Source of the DNA: Bullifex porci
Lineage (GTDB): Bacteria; Spirochaetota; Spirochaetia; Sphaerochaetales; Sphaerochaetaceae
Length of the DNA stretch: 64,000 nt
NCBI RefSeq assembly: GCF_009695635.1
Contig: NZ_VUNN01000002.1
Coordinates: forward strand, 1-64,000
Direction of reading: 5' to 3'
Under the pieces are notes generated by a model. The model was given only the letters and a program-made list of their open reading frames with translations. It was not told the DNA's origin and did no database searches. Below, in pieces: positions 41,994 to 47,870 of this stretch. Every line of letters begins with the position of its first letter. Positions within the stretch are counted from its first letter, which is position 1. Both the position numbers and the translations under genes were made by a program.

Positions 41994-43160
41994 GCAATAT
42001 TCTATCTCTAAATCTCTACCTTCAATAAAGGAGTTAATATCCTTTTTTATCTCGATATCAGGTCTAATACTACCATCATATTTTTTACTGAGCTTAAAAT
42101 ACTTTGTTGAGTAAGAAACCTCCCAACCGCTTTCTGGAAGAATAAAGCTCTTTATTTCTCCATAGTGATTAATACTTCCACCAGTTGGAGTGCCTACTAA
42201 TGAAAAACGCGCATCATCCTTTAATGAAACTGCATTTAATACTGCACTTGAAAAGGTTTGCTCTCCAATTAAGCAATATTTTTCACATTTTTGTTTCTTT
42301 AGTAGCTTAATAATTGGCTCAAATAGGGCTGAATTACCACCTCCATTGTACCTTAAGTCAACAATAATTTTTTTATATTTTGTCTTAGAGAGCATACTTT
42401 TAATATCACTTGTAAAGGAGCTTATTGGGTAGCTTGGATCCTCAGAGCATGTGTTATAGGATATTAAAAGTGTATCTTTTCTGATTTCTCTTGCACAATA
42501 ATACCCTTGATAGATATATGGTGAGTATTGCTTTACACTACTAATTAGCTCTCTACTTCTTAGCTCAGTAATTAAAATTGGTTTAAGCATTATTGTTGTA
42601 TTATCTGAAAATGTAAGAACTACATCATCATCTAAGCTATTCGCAACCTTGATAAAGCTAAGAAAAGCAGTGTTATTTAATTGGTTGCTTAGAAAAAGCC
42701 TTAGATATACATCGTTATCATGAGGGATTACTGCTTTACTCTTTTCTATAATACTTTCTATAGAGTAATTATTTATTTTAATAACCTCTTTCCCCATATA
42801 TTCCTTTAAATCTGCAGTACCTGATAATACATAGGCCTCAGAACCGATAAAGTATAGCTGAAGAGGATAGTACTTAAACTGTAGGCCTAAATCTGGTGCA
42901 TACAGCGATGTATGGGAATCATTTGAGAGAGCTAGATATGATAGTAAAGCAAAGTAATATGAAGAATCATCATAGCTATCAATATTGCTACTTAGAGCGG
43001 AAAATACTTTATCACATTCCTCTTTAGAATTTGAATTATAAAAGTTTTTATGTAATGAGCTTATATTAGACTTAAGATATTCAAACTCACTACTTTTTGA
43101 GCCAAATAGCTGAGTTGATAACAATAAAATAAATAACAAAAGATTAATAATTCTTTTCAT
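41985..43160 (-). CDS. Secreted S41-family peptidase
   Basis: A 391-residue exported protein with a signal peptide (1-20, ending LFGSKS). The catalytic half has IIVDLRYNGGGNSALFEPII near 270 and GEQTFSSAVLNAV near 302, where the Ser nucleophile of C-terminal-processing/TSP peptidases lies. GTPTGGSINHYGE near 330 completes the fold. No clear PDZ domain is visible. It probably acts in the periplasm or at the cell surface on unknown substrates. It is monocistronic. Confidence 0.75.
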   Translation of the reverse strand: MKRIINLLLFILLLSTQLFGSKSSEFEYLKSNISSLHKNFYNSNSKEECDKVFSALSSNIDSYDDSSYYFALLSYLALSNDSHTSLYAPDLGLQFKYYPLQLYFIGSEAYVLSGTADLKEYMGKEVIKINNYSIESIIEKSKAVIPHDNDVYLRLFLSNQLNNTAFLSFIKVANSLDDDVVLTFSDNTTIMLKPILITELRSRELISSVKQYSPYIYQGYYCAREIRKDTLLISYNTCSEDPSYPISSFTSDIKSMLSKTKYKKIIVDLRYNGGGNSALFEPIIKLLKKQKCEKYCLIGEQTFSSAVLNAVSLKDDARFSLVGTPTGGSINHYGEIKSFILPESGWEVSYSTKYFKLSKKYDGSIRPDIEIKKDINSFIEGRDLEIEYCLK

Positions 43161-43231
43161 AAAAAGAGTGTAGCATATAAATTAGATTTATTGTATTTTT
43201 TGAATTAATAATTTGTTTATAGAGGTTTTTC

Positions 43232-44224
43232 ATGAAAATAACACTAAAAAACCTAAAGAGGGATTATGGAACACTTCATGCAGTGCAGGATGTGTCTCTT
43301 ACTATCCCTTCTAATAAGATATATGGAATTATTGGTCGTTCAGGGGCTGGTAAGTCAACTTTAGTACGTCTAATTAGCATGCTAGAAAAGCCAGATAGTG
43401 GAGAGGTTTGGTACGATGAGGAAAGAGTTGATAACCTTTCTAAGAAGGAGCTAATTGCAAAAAGAAGAAGAATTGGAATGATTTTCCAAAACTTCAACCT
43501 GTTTTCTTCTAGAAATGCTTTAGAGAATATTGCTTATCCAATGGAGATTTGCCATATGGAAAAAGGCTATATTAAAAAGAGAAGTGAAGAGCTTCTAGCA
43601 TTAGTAGGCTTAGAGGGTAGAGGTGATGCTCCAATATCTACTCTATCAGGTGGTCAAAAGCAGAGAGTTGCTATCGCAAGAGCGCTTGCTGTTCAGCCAG
43701 ATATCTTATTTTGTGATGAAGCAACTAGTGCTCTAGACCCTCAAACAACAAGAGCAATATTGGCTTTAATTAAAGAAATTCAAAAGAAGATGAACCTTAC
43801 AGTTGTTATGATCACACACCAAATGGAGGTTGTTCGTGATGCCTGTGACTTTGTTGCTGTATTAGATTCAGGAAGAGTAGTTGAGGAAGGAAAGGTAAGT
43901 GAGGTCTTCGCATCCCCTGTATCTGATGTTACAAAGGACTTTTTATCAACTGGAACAAATATGAGTCAATCTGTAGTTAGATGGTCCCAGGAGCCTGGTC
44001 ACTATACTCTTCGTTTCCGCGGTCAAGCAACAGATGAACCTATAATTAGTAGCGTAACAAAGGAAACTGGAGCTCTATTTAATATTAGAGCTGCAGGGGT
44101 TCAGACTGTTAATGGTGAAGAGATGGGTATTATGGCATTAGATATCGGACCTAATGAGGAGGTTGCTAAAAAGGCAATCGAAAAGCTCAAAGAGGGTGGT
44201 ATTTCTGTGGAGGTAGTAAAATGA
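43232..44224 (+). CDS. metN: Methionine ABC transporter ATP-binding protein MetN
   Basis: A 330-residue ATPase with Walker A GRSGAGKST (35-43), the Q-loop in MIFQNFNLFSSR, signature LSGGQKQRVAIARAL near 140, Walker B ILFCDEATSALDP near 161 and the H-loop His in MITHQMEV. The last 75 residues form the NIL (C2) domain, which in MetN binds methionine and inhibits transport. Its stop overlaps the metI start (ATGA). I see no SAM riboswitch or T-box upstream. It energises methionine uptake with MetI and MetQ. Confidence 0.93.
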   Translation: MKITLKNLKRDYGTLHAVQDVSLTIPSNKIYGIIGRSGAGKSTLVRLISMLEKPDSGEVWYDEERVDNLSKKELIAKRRRIGMIFQNFNLFSSRNALENIAYPMEICHMEKGYIKKRSEELLALVGLEGRGDAPISTLSGGQKQRVAIARALAVQPDILFCDEATSALDPQTTRAILALIKEIQKKMNLTVVMITHQMEVVRDACDFVAVLDSGRVVEEGKVSEVFASPVSDVTKDFLSTGTNMSQSVVRWSQEPGHYTLRFRGQATDEPIISSVTKETGALFNIRAAGVQTVNGEEMGIMALDIGPNEEVAKKAIEKLKEGGISVEVVK

Positions 44225-44883
44225 ATCAGATGATTAATCTAGTTATGAGTGCCACAGGAGAAACTCTTGTAATGGTATTCTTTTCAACTCTATTTTCTTT
44301 AATTTTAGGGCTTCCTATTGGTGTGCTTTTACACGTTACCTCATCAGAGGAGCAGGGTGGTATCATCCCACAGCCAATTTTTAACAATATCTTGGGAAGA
44401 ATAGTAAATGTATTAAGAAGCTTTCCATTTATCATCCTTATGATACTCTTAATCCCACTTTCAAGATTAATTGTAGGTACAAGTATTGGAACTAAAGCTA
44501 CTATCGTACCTCTTTCAATTGCCGCTGCTCCATTTGTTGCAAGAATCATCGAATCTGCTTTAAAGGAGGTAGATCCAGGTGTTGTTCAGGCTGCTAAGGC
44601 TATGGGCTCAACAAATGCACAAATAATAATAAAGGTATTAATCCCAGAGGCAATGCCTTCATTGGTATCTGGTGTTACCTTGACTATCATTAACCTTATT
44701 GGATACTCAGCAATGGCTGGTGCTATTGGTGGTGGCGGTCTTGGTGACCTTGCTATTAGATATGGTTATCAGCGCTTTAGACCATCCTATATGGTAGCTG
44801 CTGTACTTGTTATTCTTATCCTTGTAGAGGTAATCCAGGTAGCAGGAAATAAGCTATCTGCTAAGCTATTAGCTTCACGATGA
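44221..44883 (+). CDS. metI: Methionine ABC transporter permease MetI
   Basis: A 220-residue permease with five hydrophobic segments. The EAA loop reads VVQAAKAMGSTNAQIIIKVL near 120, and GYSAMAGAIGGGGLGDLAIR near 160 is typical of MetI. It overlaps metN by 4 bp and the next gene by 4 bp, so three genes are translated as a unit. It forms the membrane channel for methionine. Confidence 0.92.
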   Translation: MNQMINLVMSATGETLVMVFFSTLFSLILGLPIGVLLHVTSSEEQGGIIPQPIFNNILGRIVNVLRSFPFIILMILLIPLSRLIVGTSIGTKATIVPLSIAAAPFVARIIESALKEVDPGVVQAAKAMGSTNAQIIIKVLIPEAMPSLVSGVTLTIINLIGYSAMAGAIGGGGLGDLAIRYGYQRFRPSYMVAAVLVILILVEVIQVAGNKLSAKLLASR

Positions 44884-45419
44884 AAAAAGAATTTAGAAAA
44901 AGAATTAAAGAGCTAAGACATATAATTCCTATAAAGGAGATCTTTCCTGAGGTGGGTAAGGATATTGAAGTACTCATCACAGGAAAGGAGCTTTTTAGTG
45001 AAGTAAACTCTGATATTCCTTCAAATGATGTAATTGAATATCTTGAAACCATTTCATCAAACCTTCCAATGGCTACTGAGCTTAATATAGTTGTTGATGA
45101 TGAGGTTGATTTCGAAAAGGTTCAAAAATCATATAAGAGCTTTATTGCGCTTTCATTAAAGAGAAAAATTAATGAATTAAGGGTCCTTACACTTAAGGTA
45201 AGTGCCTTTTTAATTGTTGGGGCTTTATTACTTATAGTCTCATATTTCTTAGAAAATCTAGCAAAAAGAGTTATCTACGATGCTGTTAATATTATTGGTG
45301 GCTTTTCAATTTGGGAAGCTGCTGATACCTTTGTATTTGCTCGCTCTGAAAAGAAAAAGGAAGTAATTACAATGCTTAAGCTATATAAAGCAAAGTGGAA
45401 AAAACGTAATATTAGTTAA
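44880..45419 (+). CDS. Conserved hypothetical protein coupled to metNI
   Basis: A 179-residue protein with a charged, probably cytoplasmic first 100 residues (RELRHIIPIKEIFPEV, IVVDDEVDFEKVQKSYKSF), one clear transmembrane helix near 112-130 (AFLIVGALLLIVSYFLE) and a second weak hydrophobic segment (IIGGFSIWEAADTFVF) followed by a basic tail. The gene overlaps metI by 4 bp. I do not recognise a family. Context suggests only co-expression with the methionine transporter. Confidence 0.6.
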   Translation: MKKEFRKRIKELRHIIPIKEIFPEVGKDIEVLITGKELFSEVNSDIPSNDVIEYLETISSNLPMATELNIVVDDEVDFEKVQKSYKSFIALSLKRKINELRVLTLKVSAFLIVGALLLIVSYFLENLAKRVIYDAVNIIGGFSIWEAADTFVFARSEKKKEVITMLKLYKAKWKKRNIS

Positions 45420-45470
45420 TCACCTGTGAATATCCGTTGCATAAAAATTTAAAAAAATGAATAAAAAATA

Positions 45471-45499
45471 TTGATTTTTTTCTTAAGGGTCGATATTCT
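45471..45499 (+). promoter_or_regulatory. Promoter of the metQ leader
   Basis: TTGATT (45471-45476), 17 bp, TATTCT (45494-45499). Transcription would start near 45506 and give a leader of about 200 nt before metQ, including the short Met-rich ORF. Confidence 0.6.
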
Positions 45500-45532
45500 A
45501 TTGCCAAGCTATCGAAATAAAGGAGATTGAAT

Positions 45533-45610
45533 ATGACAAATAATATTTATGCAATGTGTTCAGTTTCTATGATGGCTTCTTCAATGATGATGATGCCCGT
45601 TTGGGCATAA
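45533..45610 (+). CDS. Methionine-rich leader peptide upstream of metQ (25 codons)
   Basis: Behind a perfect AAAGGAG site, ATG 45533 opens 25 codons to TAA. Eight are Met: positions 1, 8, 13, 14 and the run 18-21 (SMMMMPVWA at the end). It lies between its own promoter and metQ, whose start is 95 bp after the stop. No SAM riboswitch or T-box is seen in the operon. A strong translation signal, extreme Met content and the transporter context make a regulatory leader peptide, stalling when charged tRNA-Met is scarce, the most likely reading. The coupling structure is not obvious: no T-run terminator is visible, only a hairpin CATCCA/TGGATG at 45671-45690 next to the metQ ribosome binding site. 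Confidence 0.65.
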   Translation: MTNNIYAMCSVSMMASSMMMMPVWA

Positions 45611-45670
45611 TATTTTAAATTAAACCATTTTTATAACCACAATCAAAAAATCTTAAAAATTAAATCATTA

Positions 45671-45699
45671 ACATCCATATTATTTGGATGGCGAAGGAG
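45671..45699 (+). promoter_or_regulatory. Hairpin beside the metQ ribosome binding site
   Basis: CATCCA, a 7-nt loop, then TGGATG sits immediately upstream of the AAGGAG (45694-45699) that serves metQ. It could modulate ribosome access in response to translation of the leader ORF. The stem is short, so this is tentative. Confidence 0.35.
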
Positions 45700-45705
45700 T
45701 ATATC

Positions 45706-46512
45706 ATGAAAAAATTATTTACTGTTTTAGTTGTTGTATTATTTGCATTTACATCTGTTTTCGCACAAGGAAGTAAAGAAGCTGCAGCTTCAAATGTCAT
45801 CAAGGTTGGCGCAACCCCTGATCCTCACGCAATTTTACTCAATCTAGTCGTTGATGACCTTGCAGCTGAAGGCTATACACTTCAGGTAATCGAATTTACA
45901 GACTATGTAACACCTAATGATGCACTCGAAAGTGGTGAGATCGATGCTAACTATTTCCAGCATATTCCTTACCTTGAATCATTTAATACAGAGCATGGTT
46001 ATCACCTTGTAAATGCTGGTGGTATTCACGTTGAGCCTCTCGCACTCTATTCAAAGAAGGTAGCAAGCTTAGCTGATCTAAAGAATGGTGCTACAATTGC
46101 AATTCCTAATGACCCAACTAATGAGGGTAGAGCACTTCTTCTCTTACAGTCTGCTGGTTTAATTAAGCTTTCTGCTTCTGCTGGTCTCGAAGCAACACCT
46201 TCTGATATCACAGAGAATGCAAAGGGTCTTAAGTTTAAGGAAATTGAAGCAGCTACACTCCCAAGAATTCTTGATGATGTTGATGCAGCTGTAATAAATG
46301 GTAACTATGCAATTCCTGCTGGCTTAATCGCAACTCGTGATGGTCTATTCGTAGAAGGTGCAGACAGCCCATATGTAAACGTAATCGCAGTTAAGGCTGG
46401 TAATGAAAACAATCCTGGCATCCAGGCTCTTGTAAAAGCACTTAAGAGCGAAAAGGTTGCTAAGTTTGTTAGTGAGAAATATCCAAACGGTGAAGTTGTT
46501 CTCGTAAAATAA
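45706..46512 (+). CDS. metQ: Methionine-binding protein MetQ
   Basis: A 268-residue NLPA-family binding protein. The signal peptide ends VFAQGSKEAA; unlike most MetQ proteins it has no lipobox Cys. The family motifs VGATPDPHAILL, DYVTPNDALESGEIDANYFQ and AIPNDPTNEGRALLLLQSAG are clear. AAGGAG at 45694-45699 supports ATG 45706 rather than the in-frame ATG 45688, which lies in the upstream hairpin. It binds methionine in the periplasm and hands it to MetNI. It is separated from metNI and has its own promoter and leader, so it can be regulated separately. Confidence 0.92.
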   Translation: MKKLFTVLVVVLFAFTSVFAQGSKEAAASNVIKVGATPDPHAILLNLVVDDLAAEGYTLQVIEFTDYVTPNDALESGEIDANYFQHIPYLESFNTEHGYHLVNAGGIHVEPLALYSKKVASLADLKNGATIAIPNDPTNEGRALLLLQSAGLIKLSASAGLEATPSDITENAKGLKFKEIEAATLPRILDDVDAAVINGNYAIPAGLIATRDGLFVEGADSPYVNVIAVKAGNENNPGIQALVKALKSEKVAKFVSEKYPNGEVVLVK

Positions 46513-46530
46513 TAATTAGTATTCTCTTTT

Positions 46531-46561
46531 GGGAGTGGTTGTCCTGGCCACTCCCTTTTTT
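46531..46561 (+). terminator. Terminator after metQ
   Basis: Stem GGGAGTGG (46531-46538) / CCACTCCC (46548-46555), 9-nt loop, six T. Confidence 0.9.
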
Positions 46562-46661
46562 CTTACCTAAGAAGGTAAGTAACAAAAAAAGATTAAAATA
46601 GAAGTGTATTTTATTAATCCTGTAATGATGAAAGACAATTTTTAATACTATATTAATAGGT

Positions 46662-47870
46662 ATGAATATTAGTTTAATTGTAATAATAAGTTTGTTAGTT
46701 TTAAATTTACTCTCCTTTATTGTTATTATTTTTAAAATAAAGCCTAATAAAGCTTCAAACAGAGATTTTCTTGAGCTTGAAAGAGAGCACAATGAGGGGC
46801 TAAATGAGTTTCGTGATTCCATCACAGAGCGTTTTGATACTCTAAATCATAGAAATGCAATATTAACTGAGAGTATTAATAAGACTCTTAATGAGGTATC
46901 TGTTTCAACTACTAGATTAATGCAATCTGTTAGCGTAAGCATGGAAAACCTTAGAAAGGAAAATAATGACCAGCTTGAGAGGATGAGAAGAGTAGTTGAT
47001 GAAAAGCTTCAAGAGACTCTTGAGAATAGAATATCTAAGTCCTTTGAGCAGGTTCAAAAGCAGCTTGAAGCTGTTTATAAGGGACTTGGAGAGATGCAGA
47101 GTCTTGCAAAAAATGTTGGAGACCTTTCTAAGCTATTTACAAATGTAAAGAGTAGAGGCGTCTGGGGAGAGGTTCAAGCAGAGGCTATAATTAATGAAAT
47201 CTTAACTGTTGATCAATTTGTTAAGAACTTTAAGCCAAAGGAGAGAAGCAGTGAGGTTGTTGAGTTTGCAATAAAGCTCCCAGGCAAAACAGAGAAGGAT
47301 AACTGCTACCTTCCAATTGATTCAAAGTTCCCTAGAGAGGACTATGAAAACTACGTTAAAGCTAGTGAAAATGGTAATATTGATGAAATGAGATATTACC
47401 AGACTCAGATGAAAAACAGAGTCTTATCAGAAGCAAAGGATATTTATTCAAAGTATATAAATCCACCAAGAACAACTGACTTTGCAATTTTATTTCTCCC
47501 AACTGAGAGTCTTTATGCTGAGATTCTATCAATTCCAGGCTTTACAGATAGCTTACAAACTCAATATAGAGTTACTATTGCAGGTCCAACAACACTTGCT
47601 GCCTTAATTAATAGCTTACAAATGGGCTTTAAAACTCTTGCAGTTGAGAAGCGAAGTCATGAGGTTTGGAAGCTGTTTGCAGCTATGAAAAAGCAATTTG
47701 GTAATTTTGCAAAGAGTGTTGATGCCGCAGTAAAAAGTATTGATAGTGCTTCCTTAAAGCTTAGTGATGTTTCTTCAAGAACTCAAAAAATATCTTCAAA
47801 GCTTGAAGCTATTGAGCTTCCAGAGGAGGATGCAAATACAGATATTATTCAAATTACTGATGAGCAATGA
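46662..47870 (+). CDS. rmuC: DNA recombination protein RmuC
   Basis: A 402-residue protein. There is one N-terminal membrane helix (1-22), a coiled coil with SISMENL/NDQLERMRRVVDEKLQ features to about 130, then the RmuC nuclease-like domain: SRGVWGEVQAEAI near 165, YLPIDSKFPREDYENY near 215, FAILFLPTESLYAEIL near 275 and GPTTLAALINSLQMGF near 308. RmuC limits inversion at short inverted repeats in E. coli. The length is close to the shorter family members. It is monocistronic between metQ and argF. Confidence 0.9.
   Translation: MNISLIVIISLLVLNLLSFIVIIFKIKPNKASNRDFLELEREHNEGLNEFRDSITERFDTLNHRNAILTESINKTLNEVSVSTTRLMQSVSVSMENLRKENNDQLERMRRVVDEKLQETLENRISKSFEQVQKQLEAVYKGLGEMQSLAKNVGDLSKLFTNVKSRGVWGEVQAEAIINEILTVDQFVKNFKPKERSSEVVEFAIKLPGKTEKDNCYLPIDSKFPREDYENYVKASENGNIDEMRYYQTQMKNRVLSEAKDIYSKYINPPRTTDFAILFLPTESLYAEILSIPGFTDSLQTQYRVTIAGPTTLAALINSLQMGFKTLAVEKRSHEVWKLFAAMKKQFGNFAKSVDAAVKSIDSASLKLSDVSSRTQKISSKLEAIELPEEDANTDIIQITDEQ

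Follow-up and report, generated by a model that had tools for sequence, protein, structure and literature searches.

The methionine transporter gene metQ in the window (the whole stretch of DNA that was analysed, 64,000 nucleotides) is preceded by a short, Met-rich open reading frame (ORF) that relatives have conserved in its Met codons and in its RNA pairing. This leader is very likely a cis-acting, ribosome-mediated attenuator with Met control codons, and it is probably low methionine that switches metQ on. Termination of transcription as the output of the attenuator is held more tentatively, at slightly under an even chance. The original prediction of a methionine-responsive attenuator is strengthened by the conservation of the leader across eight genera, but its details concerning the terminator and a hairpin at the metQ ribosome binding site need amendment.

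The leader and its locus

The gene order in the window is metN, metI, a 179-aa ORF, the leader, and metQ (Table 1). The best NCBIfam model for metN is TIGR02314 (ABC_MetN) at 323 bits, which is under the model cut-off, and the MetQ/NlpA models of NCBIfam that match metQ are likewise under their cut-offs. The 179-aa ORF overlaps the end of metI and is probably membrane-bound.

An ORF of 25 codons, eight of them Met codons and four of these consecutive, had been predicted 95 bp ahead of metQ with a ribosome binding site of its own, and all of this was borne out. The ORF encodes MTNNIYAMCSVSMMASSMMMMPVWA and runs from an ATG at 45533, preceded by AAGGAG at 45520–45525, to a TAA at 45608–45610; the metQ ATG is at 45706. 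The promoter described as good is present and is of moderate quality, and several genomes of the same genus have TTGAAA-N17/18-TATTCT or TATGCT at the equivalent position. The locus was also said to have no SAM riboswitch or T-box. Rfam scans of 43000–47000 agree with this, and RF00162 has no match anywhere in the genome of the window. The leader element itself matches no Rfam family in scans of the same region and of six relatives.

Table 1. Features of the metN to metQ region, in positions of the window.
Feature	Position	Strand	Basis
metN, methionine ABC transporter ATPase	43232..44224	+	PF00005 (ABC_tran) and PF09383 (NIL domain)
metI, permease	44221..44883	+	PF00528
179-aa ORF between metI and leader, function unknown	44880..45419	+	No Pfam family
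Promoter candidate for leader-metQ unit, TTGATT, 17 nt, TATTCT	45471..45499	+	8/12 consensus matches
Leader ORF Shine-Dalgarno (SD), AAGGAG, 5' arm of P1	45520..45525	+	Sequence; P1 covariation over 84 leaders
Met-rich leader ORF, MTNNIYAMCSVSMMASSMMMMPVWA then stop, 25 codons, 8 Met	45533..45610	+	Sequence; conservation in 82/139 family genomes; ATG frame statistics
Anti-SD region within ORF, 3' arm of P1	45557..45581	+	Pairing; homologous position in relatives
Terminal run of four Met codons, adjoining and entering P2	45584..45595	+	Sequence
Hairpin P2, ATGCCC-GTTT-GGGCAT, overlapping last Met codon and first stop base; weakly terminator-like	45593..45608	+	Terminator scan; conserved stem
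G-free spacer after leader, 80 nt, AT-rich with some C	45606..45685	+	Sequence
Small hairpin ahead of metQ SD, CATCCA...TGGATG	45672..45690	+	Sequence
metQ SD, AAGGAG	45694..45699	+	Sequence
metQ, methionine-binding lipoprotein	45706..46512	+	PF03180, E=3.9e-97

Conservation in the Sphaerochaetaceae

Within the genus of the window, each of the 15 genomes in which DNA ahead of metQ is available has a Met-rich leader at this place; among these is a genome with the record name Candidatus Aphodenecus pullistercoris. Homologous leaders were found by profile search in 82 of 139 genomes of the Sphaerochaetaceae, a family of gut spirochaetes, representing 8 of 22 genera. The core pattern, searched for separately, was found in 60 of the 139, and the same pattern reversed as a control matched once. 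The RNA model derived from the MAFFT alignment retained 3 base pairs only and is therefore mainly a sequence profile.

When bacteria and archaea were scanned with one genome per species, most of the records returned were from spirochaetes, and the remainder looked like chance. Pattern matches in Proteobacteria, Gemmatimonadetes, and other groups were rejected, having neither an SD-led ORF nor a met gene downstream, and a single match labelled 'Erysipelotrichaceae' was set aside as chance since it has no SD-led frame. Profile matches in other families of the class were not accepted, being weak (E 3e-4 to 0.01) and, in the cases inspected, resembling stretches of unrelated genes. In a different order of spirochaetes, 30 metQ loci had no Met-rich leader.

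Nearly all of the leaders with a good SD lie ahead of metQ-family genes. The alternatives, each seen in few genomes, are metN, metY, and genes for an OppA-type binding protein and a YbdH-like dehydrogenase. One genome (G082) has a leader ahead of metN in a metNIQ operon and another ahead of an SBP_bac_5 protein gene; a leader resembling the latter is found in G083, where the downstream gene was not read cleanly. In G131 the leader is ahead of metY (TIGR01326, exceeding its cut-off), and in G116 it is ahead of a gene for a YbdH-like hydroxycarboxylate dehydrogenase (NF007880, exceeding its cut-off), which raises a possible link to methionine salvage. This G116 leader (G116:C37:8414-8509, minus strand) is divergent from a metQ leader and shares its intergenic region.

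Several loci depart from the common arrangement. The leaders in G059 and G084 have no SD, and in G084 (L311, about 297–382) the ATG is only a few nucleotides past a TATAGT -10 box, so that this leader may be on a leaderless mRNA. In G079 (G079:C1:2233352-2234180) metQ is split over two frames, through either a frameshift or an assembly error. The genome of the window also encodes a second MetQ-type protein (L064:748-1650, contig C34) in which the two halves are swapped, residues 30–171 corresponding to PF03180 positions 99–236 and residues 199–296 to the N-terminal half. The swapped order is also seen in comparison with E. coli MetQ (4yah), and such proteins are found in seven genomes of three genera (L064, L052, L066, L067, L099, L266, and L267). 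From its domain order the protein looks like a circular permutation. Those of the half-swapped genes that were read have the same Met leader upstream.

Selection on the Met codons

Among the 81 distinct homologous leaders, ATG occurs 430 times in frame and 10 times out of frame, and 146 times against 10 over the 841 codons that precede the anti-SD and the terminal run of Met codons, counts that are not phylogenetically independent, as the leaders are related by descent. The 430 to 10 ratio means that the Met-rich ORF is not a product of chance. The leaders are 17 to 28 codons long and end in TAA (34), TGA (29), or TAG (18), counts subject to the same shared descent.

Past the start codon, Met makes up 26% of the leader residues. 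The number of Met codons per leader holds at 4 to 9 while their positions move, as illustrated by MMMSFSMCMPWRA, MMCPCRA, SMMPVRA, and MMMSLCLMPGWAK. A Met codon adjoins the hairpin P2 in 81/81 of the distinct leaders, with another one codon earlier in 73/81. The comparison of metQ upstream regions of relatives that had been suggested as a check therefore finds the start, stop, and Met codons kept and the other codons free over eight genera. On this comparative evidence, the Met codons of the leader ORF are under selection.

Pairing of the leader Shine-Dalgarno within the ORF

P1 is formed by pairing between the leader's SD region and the codons directly ahead of the terminal Met run, its arms being, for example, GGAGGACAU/AUGUCCUCC, GGAGAGUAU/AUGCUCUCC, or GAGAGACAU/AUGUCUCUC. 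The two arms covary. The duplex score of SD and anti-SD from the same genome is 20.5, compared to 16.2 when these are permuted among genomes (sd 0.34; 0/5000; 84 leaders). The covariation is present within genera g1 and g10 too, and in genus g21 at 1/5000. In a control with equal kinship, in which the anti-SD was compared with the SD of metQ, there is no signal (13.8 versus 14.0 permuted). Such covariation indicates that the leader's own SD can be locked by the anti-SD within the ORF. In the fold model, a ribosome parked on the Met codons increases the mean predicted accessibility of the leader SD from 0.08 to 0.29.

The leader in the window is the exception, its predicted SD accessibility going from 0.07 to 0.02 with the parked ribosome in the fold model. 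P1 is weaker or shifted in the window relative to its relatives, with two options for the pairing: either TGTTCAGTTTCT (45557–45568) pairs with 45522–45533, or CTTCTT (45576–45581) pairs with AAGGAG. The anti-SD position in relatives is occupied by TCCTCC, TTCTCC, or CTCTCC, and the first of the window pairings is upstream of that position.

The P2 hairpin and the spacer

P2 has the consensus UGCCC-N4-GGGCA and sits directly on the last Met codon. Its stem is kept in all leaders, and its mean predicted probability is 0.91. The second metQ copies in three genera have UGCGCU-N4-AGCGCA or UGCGC-N4-GCGCA here, with the stop codon within the loop. In the window P2 is followed by AATATTTT, and a permissive terminator scan found 1, versus 0.2 expected in shuffles. 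The earlier statement that no terminator with a T run is visible needs correction. A weak terminator-like hairpin with a conserved stem does overlap the end of the ORF, but the U-run after it is not conserved: 41 of 84 leaders have 5 or more U in 8 nt, and 7 of 84 have 6 or more. P2 was rejected as a canonical intrinsic terminator for this reason. Neither a mutually exclusive antiterminator nor an alternative partner for P2 was found by eye or in folds, and only P1 covaries.

The first 30 nt past P2 contain 3–7% G and 15–29% C (84 leaders), and a motif like UUUCCACCACAU recurs in the spacer after P2. Rho is encoded, and Rho-dependent termination has been described in a spirochaete, Borrelia burgdorferi (PMC10319736). 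From the depletion of G behind P2, the presence of Rho, and the Borrelia precedent, we infer that premature termination after P2 is favoured.

Proposed mechanism

When charged elongator Met-tRNA is scarce, the ribosome would pause at the terminal Met codons. There it would shield the anti-SD together with the 5' arm of P2 and so keep both P1 and P2 open. With P1 open the leader would be reloaded, and RNA polymerase would continue into metQ. With ample methionine, the ribosome would reach the stop codon and leave, after which P1 would close, blocking further loading, and P2 would form. The unprotected, G-poor RNA behind P2 would then favour an end of the transcript ahead of metQ. This would most likely be through hairpin-assisted or Rho-assisted termination, with translational control or mRNA decay as the alternatives. 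The timing that separates the two states is an assumption of the model, since a ribosome at the stop codon would cover P2 as well.

Alternative explanations

Control of metQ at translation was suggested in the original prediction, through a hairpin at the metQ ribosome binding site. This hairpin leaves the metQ SD uncovered and was seen, in the form it has here, just in the window and in the nearest relative (G006), and no upstream segment covaries with the SD, so that the suggestion is unsupported in the family as a whole. The broader possibility that a ribosome stalled on the leader releases the metQ SD from some sequestering structure is unlikely. It is the nearest published mechanism for poly-amino-acid leaders without terminators (review PMC9031893, citing Canestrari 2020). 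For the window itself, a ribosome on the Met codons does raise the predicted metQ SD accessibility, from 0.02 to 0.21. Over 82 leaders, however, permutation tests identify no covarying partner of the metQ SD in the anti-SD or in other upstream segments, and pairing with the spacer is slightly below that of permuted partners. Its predicted accessibility is 0.31, compared to 0.30 with shuffled spacers, and the parked ribosome does not raise the mean. A generic, invariant pairing of SD and anti-SD would evade the covariation test. Sequestration by the anti-SD or by the tract after P2, which single folds had suggested, was rejected on the negative permutation and accessibility tests.

The leader might instead encode a nascent-chain arrest peptide of the TnaC or SpeFL type, the SMMMPxRA end of which would sense methionine or SAM in the ribosome tunnel. 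In tnaC the stop codon is followed by a G-poor spacer, as it is here, and the end of the peptide appears conserved (SMMMP.RA before the stop). These end residues are, however, imposed by the bases of the hairpin (CCC, NGG, and GCA), while the loop codon is unconstrained, giving V, A, G, W, S, F, L, or P. Some leaders end within the loop, as MMMP or MMMR followed by the stop, and the positions of Met shift, all of which makes an arrest peptide improbable.

A metabolite-binding RNA, either a SAM or a Met riboswitch in which the reading frame is incidental, is less probable again. There are two conserved stems with a short conserved junction, AUGAUG, and a functional linkage to methionine genes. 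The ATG codons are frame-specific, however, length changes are in frame, the stop is conserved, and there is no Rfam match. The loop of P1 is also variable and the junction is down to 3 nt or less, which leaves little space for a conserved core that could bind a ligand. That the ORF encodes a functional small protein rich in Met is the least credible of all, since despite the good SD and the conservation across genera no residue other than Met is conserved beyond those that P1 and P2 dictate, the N-terminal part is unconstrained, and the length varies.

Other methionine loci in the family

A different genus of the family, presumably Sphaerochaeta and represented by closed genomes, has metQ directly after metI with no leader. 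In that genus a related Met-rich leader is located ahead of metY in 23 genomes, and one genome of a further genus has it as well. In the metY leader the SD-adjacent GGCGGCAC pairs with GUGCCGCC within the ORF, and two genomes change both, to GGUGGCAC and GUGCCACC. A second conserved small ORF is present between this type of leader and metY (L323–L330 and L334–L345), encoding for example MKQAKHPRCGSVVDHM or MKRAPHPRCGSVKDRM, each followed by a stop.

The SAM riboswitch (RF00162) binds SAM and, in other bacteria, controls methionine and SAM genes. It is found in 22 genomes of the family, 19 of them exceeding the family cut-off. Four of the eight loci read are ahead of metK (L268, L273, L274, and L275) and none is ahead of metQ. 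Within the family, SAM and Met therefore seem to be sensed by two separate RNA devices. The chances are about even that the leaders at metQ, metNIQ, and metY form a Met-sensing regulon of the Sphaerochaetaceae, in which the ORF gates its own loading and P2 is the one decision hairpin, in place of terminator and antiterminator pairs.

Relation to known leader peptides

Leader peptides rich in the regulated amino acid are classic for the his, trp, leu, and thr operons. What is known of methionine control in bacteria comes mainly from SAM riboswitches, from Met T-boxes, and from protein repressors. The spirochaete leader is similar to the classical attenuators in being a short, SD-led ORF near the 5' end of the transcript, rich in codons of the amino acid handled, and in having RNA structure at the control codons. 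Unlike these, it uses methionine, has no canonical U-run terminator and no antiterminator that could be found, locks its own SD through an anti-SD within the ORF, and has a hairpin that overlaps the end of the ORF.

Mycobacteria have poly-Cys leader ORFs at their cys loci (PMC1262725; Canestrari 2020, cited in PMC9031893). These share with the spirochaete leaders the runs of codons for a single amino acid near the stop, the lack of an obvious terminator, the location ahead of genes for that amino acid, and a G-poor or pyrimidine-rich spacer. The mycobacterial leaders differ from the spirochaete ones, which use Met, are SD-led rather than leaderless (with one leaderless-looking case), conserve P1 and P2, and give no support for sequestration of the downstream SD.

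Leader-peptide sensing is well known for several amino acids and is barely described for methionine. For methionine, the literature covered yielded one weak candidate, metL of Streptomyces lividans, a proposed leader peptide ahead of metNIQ (PMC8079986). The gene metL (MSTTSDRTPATEATTTPGARCMCRRMCAF) precedes a methionine importer and has no Rho-independent terminator. It differs from the spirochaete leaders in that its Met codons number only two in addition to the start, and in being leaderless, and its sequence does not resemble theirs. It is a single sequence, for which the passages covered give no conservation test or comparable hairpin. No Met-rich leader peptide in spirochaetes was found in the literature covered, which is largely open-access. 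Leader peptides were once believed to be absent outside the Proteobacteria and Actinobacteria, a His case being found later in the Firmicutes (PMC2965389).

A conserved regulon of leaders with Met codons would fill the methionine gap and extend amino-acid leader peptides to the spirochaetes. If this reading is correct, the leader would be a compact attenuator that senses the charging of Met-tRNA independently of SAM riboswitches, and would exemplify a compact design in which a leader controls its own translation. With a sensor of Met-tRNA at metQ and metY and a sensor of SAM at metK in one family, the signals for uptake and for use would become testable.
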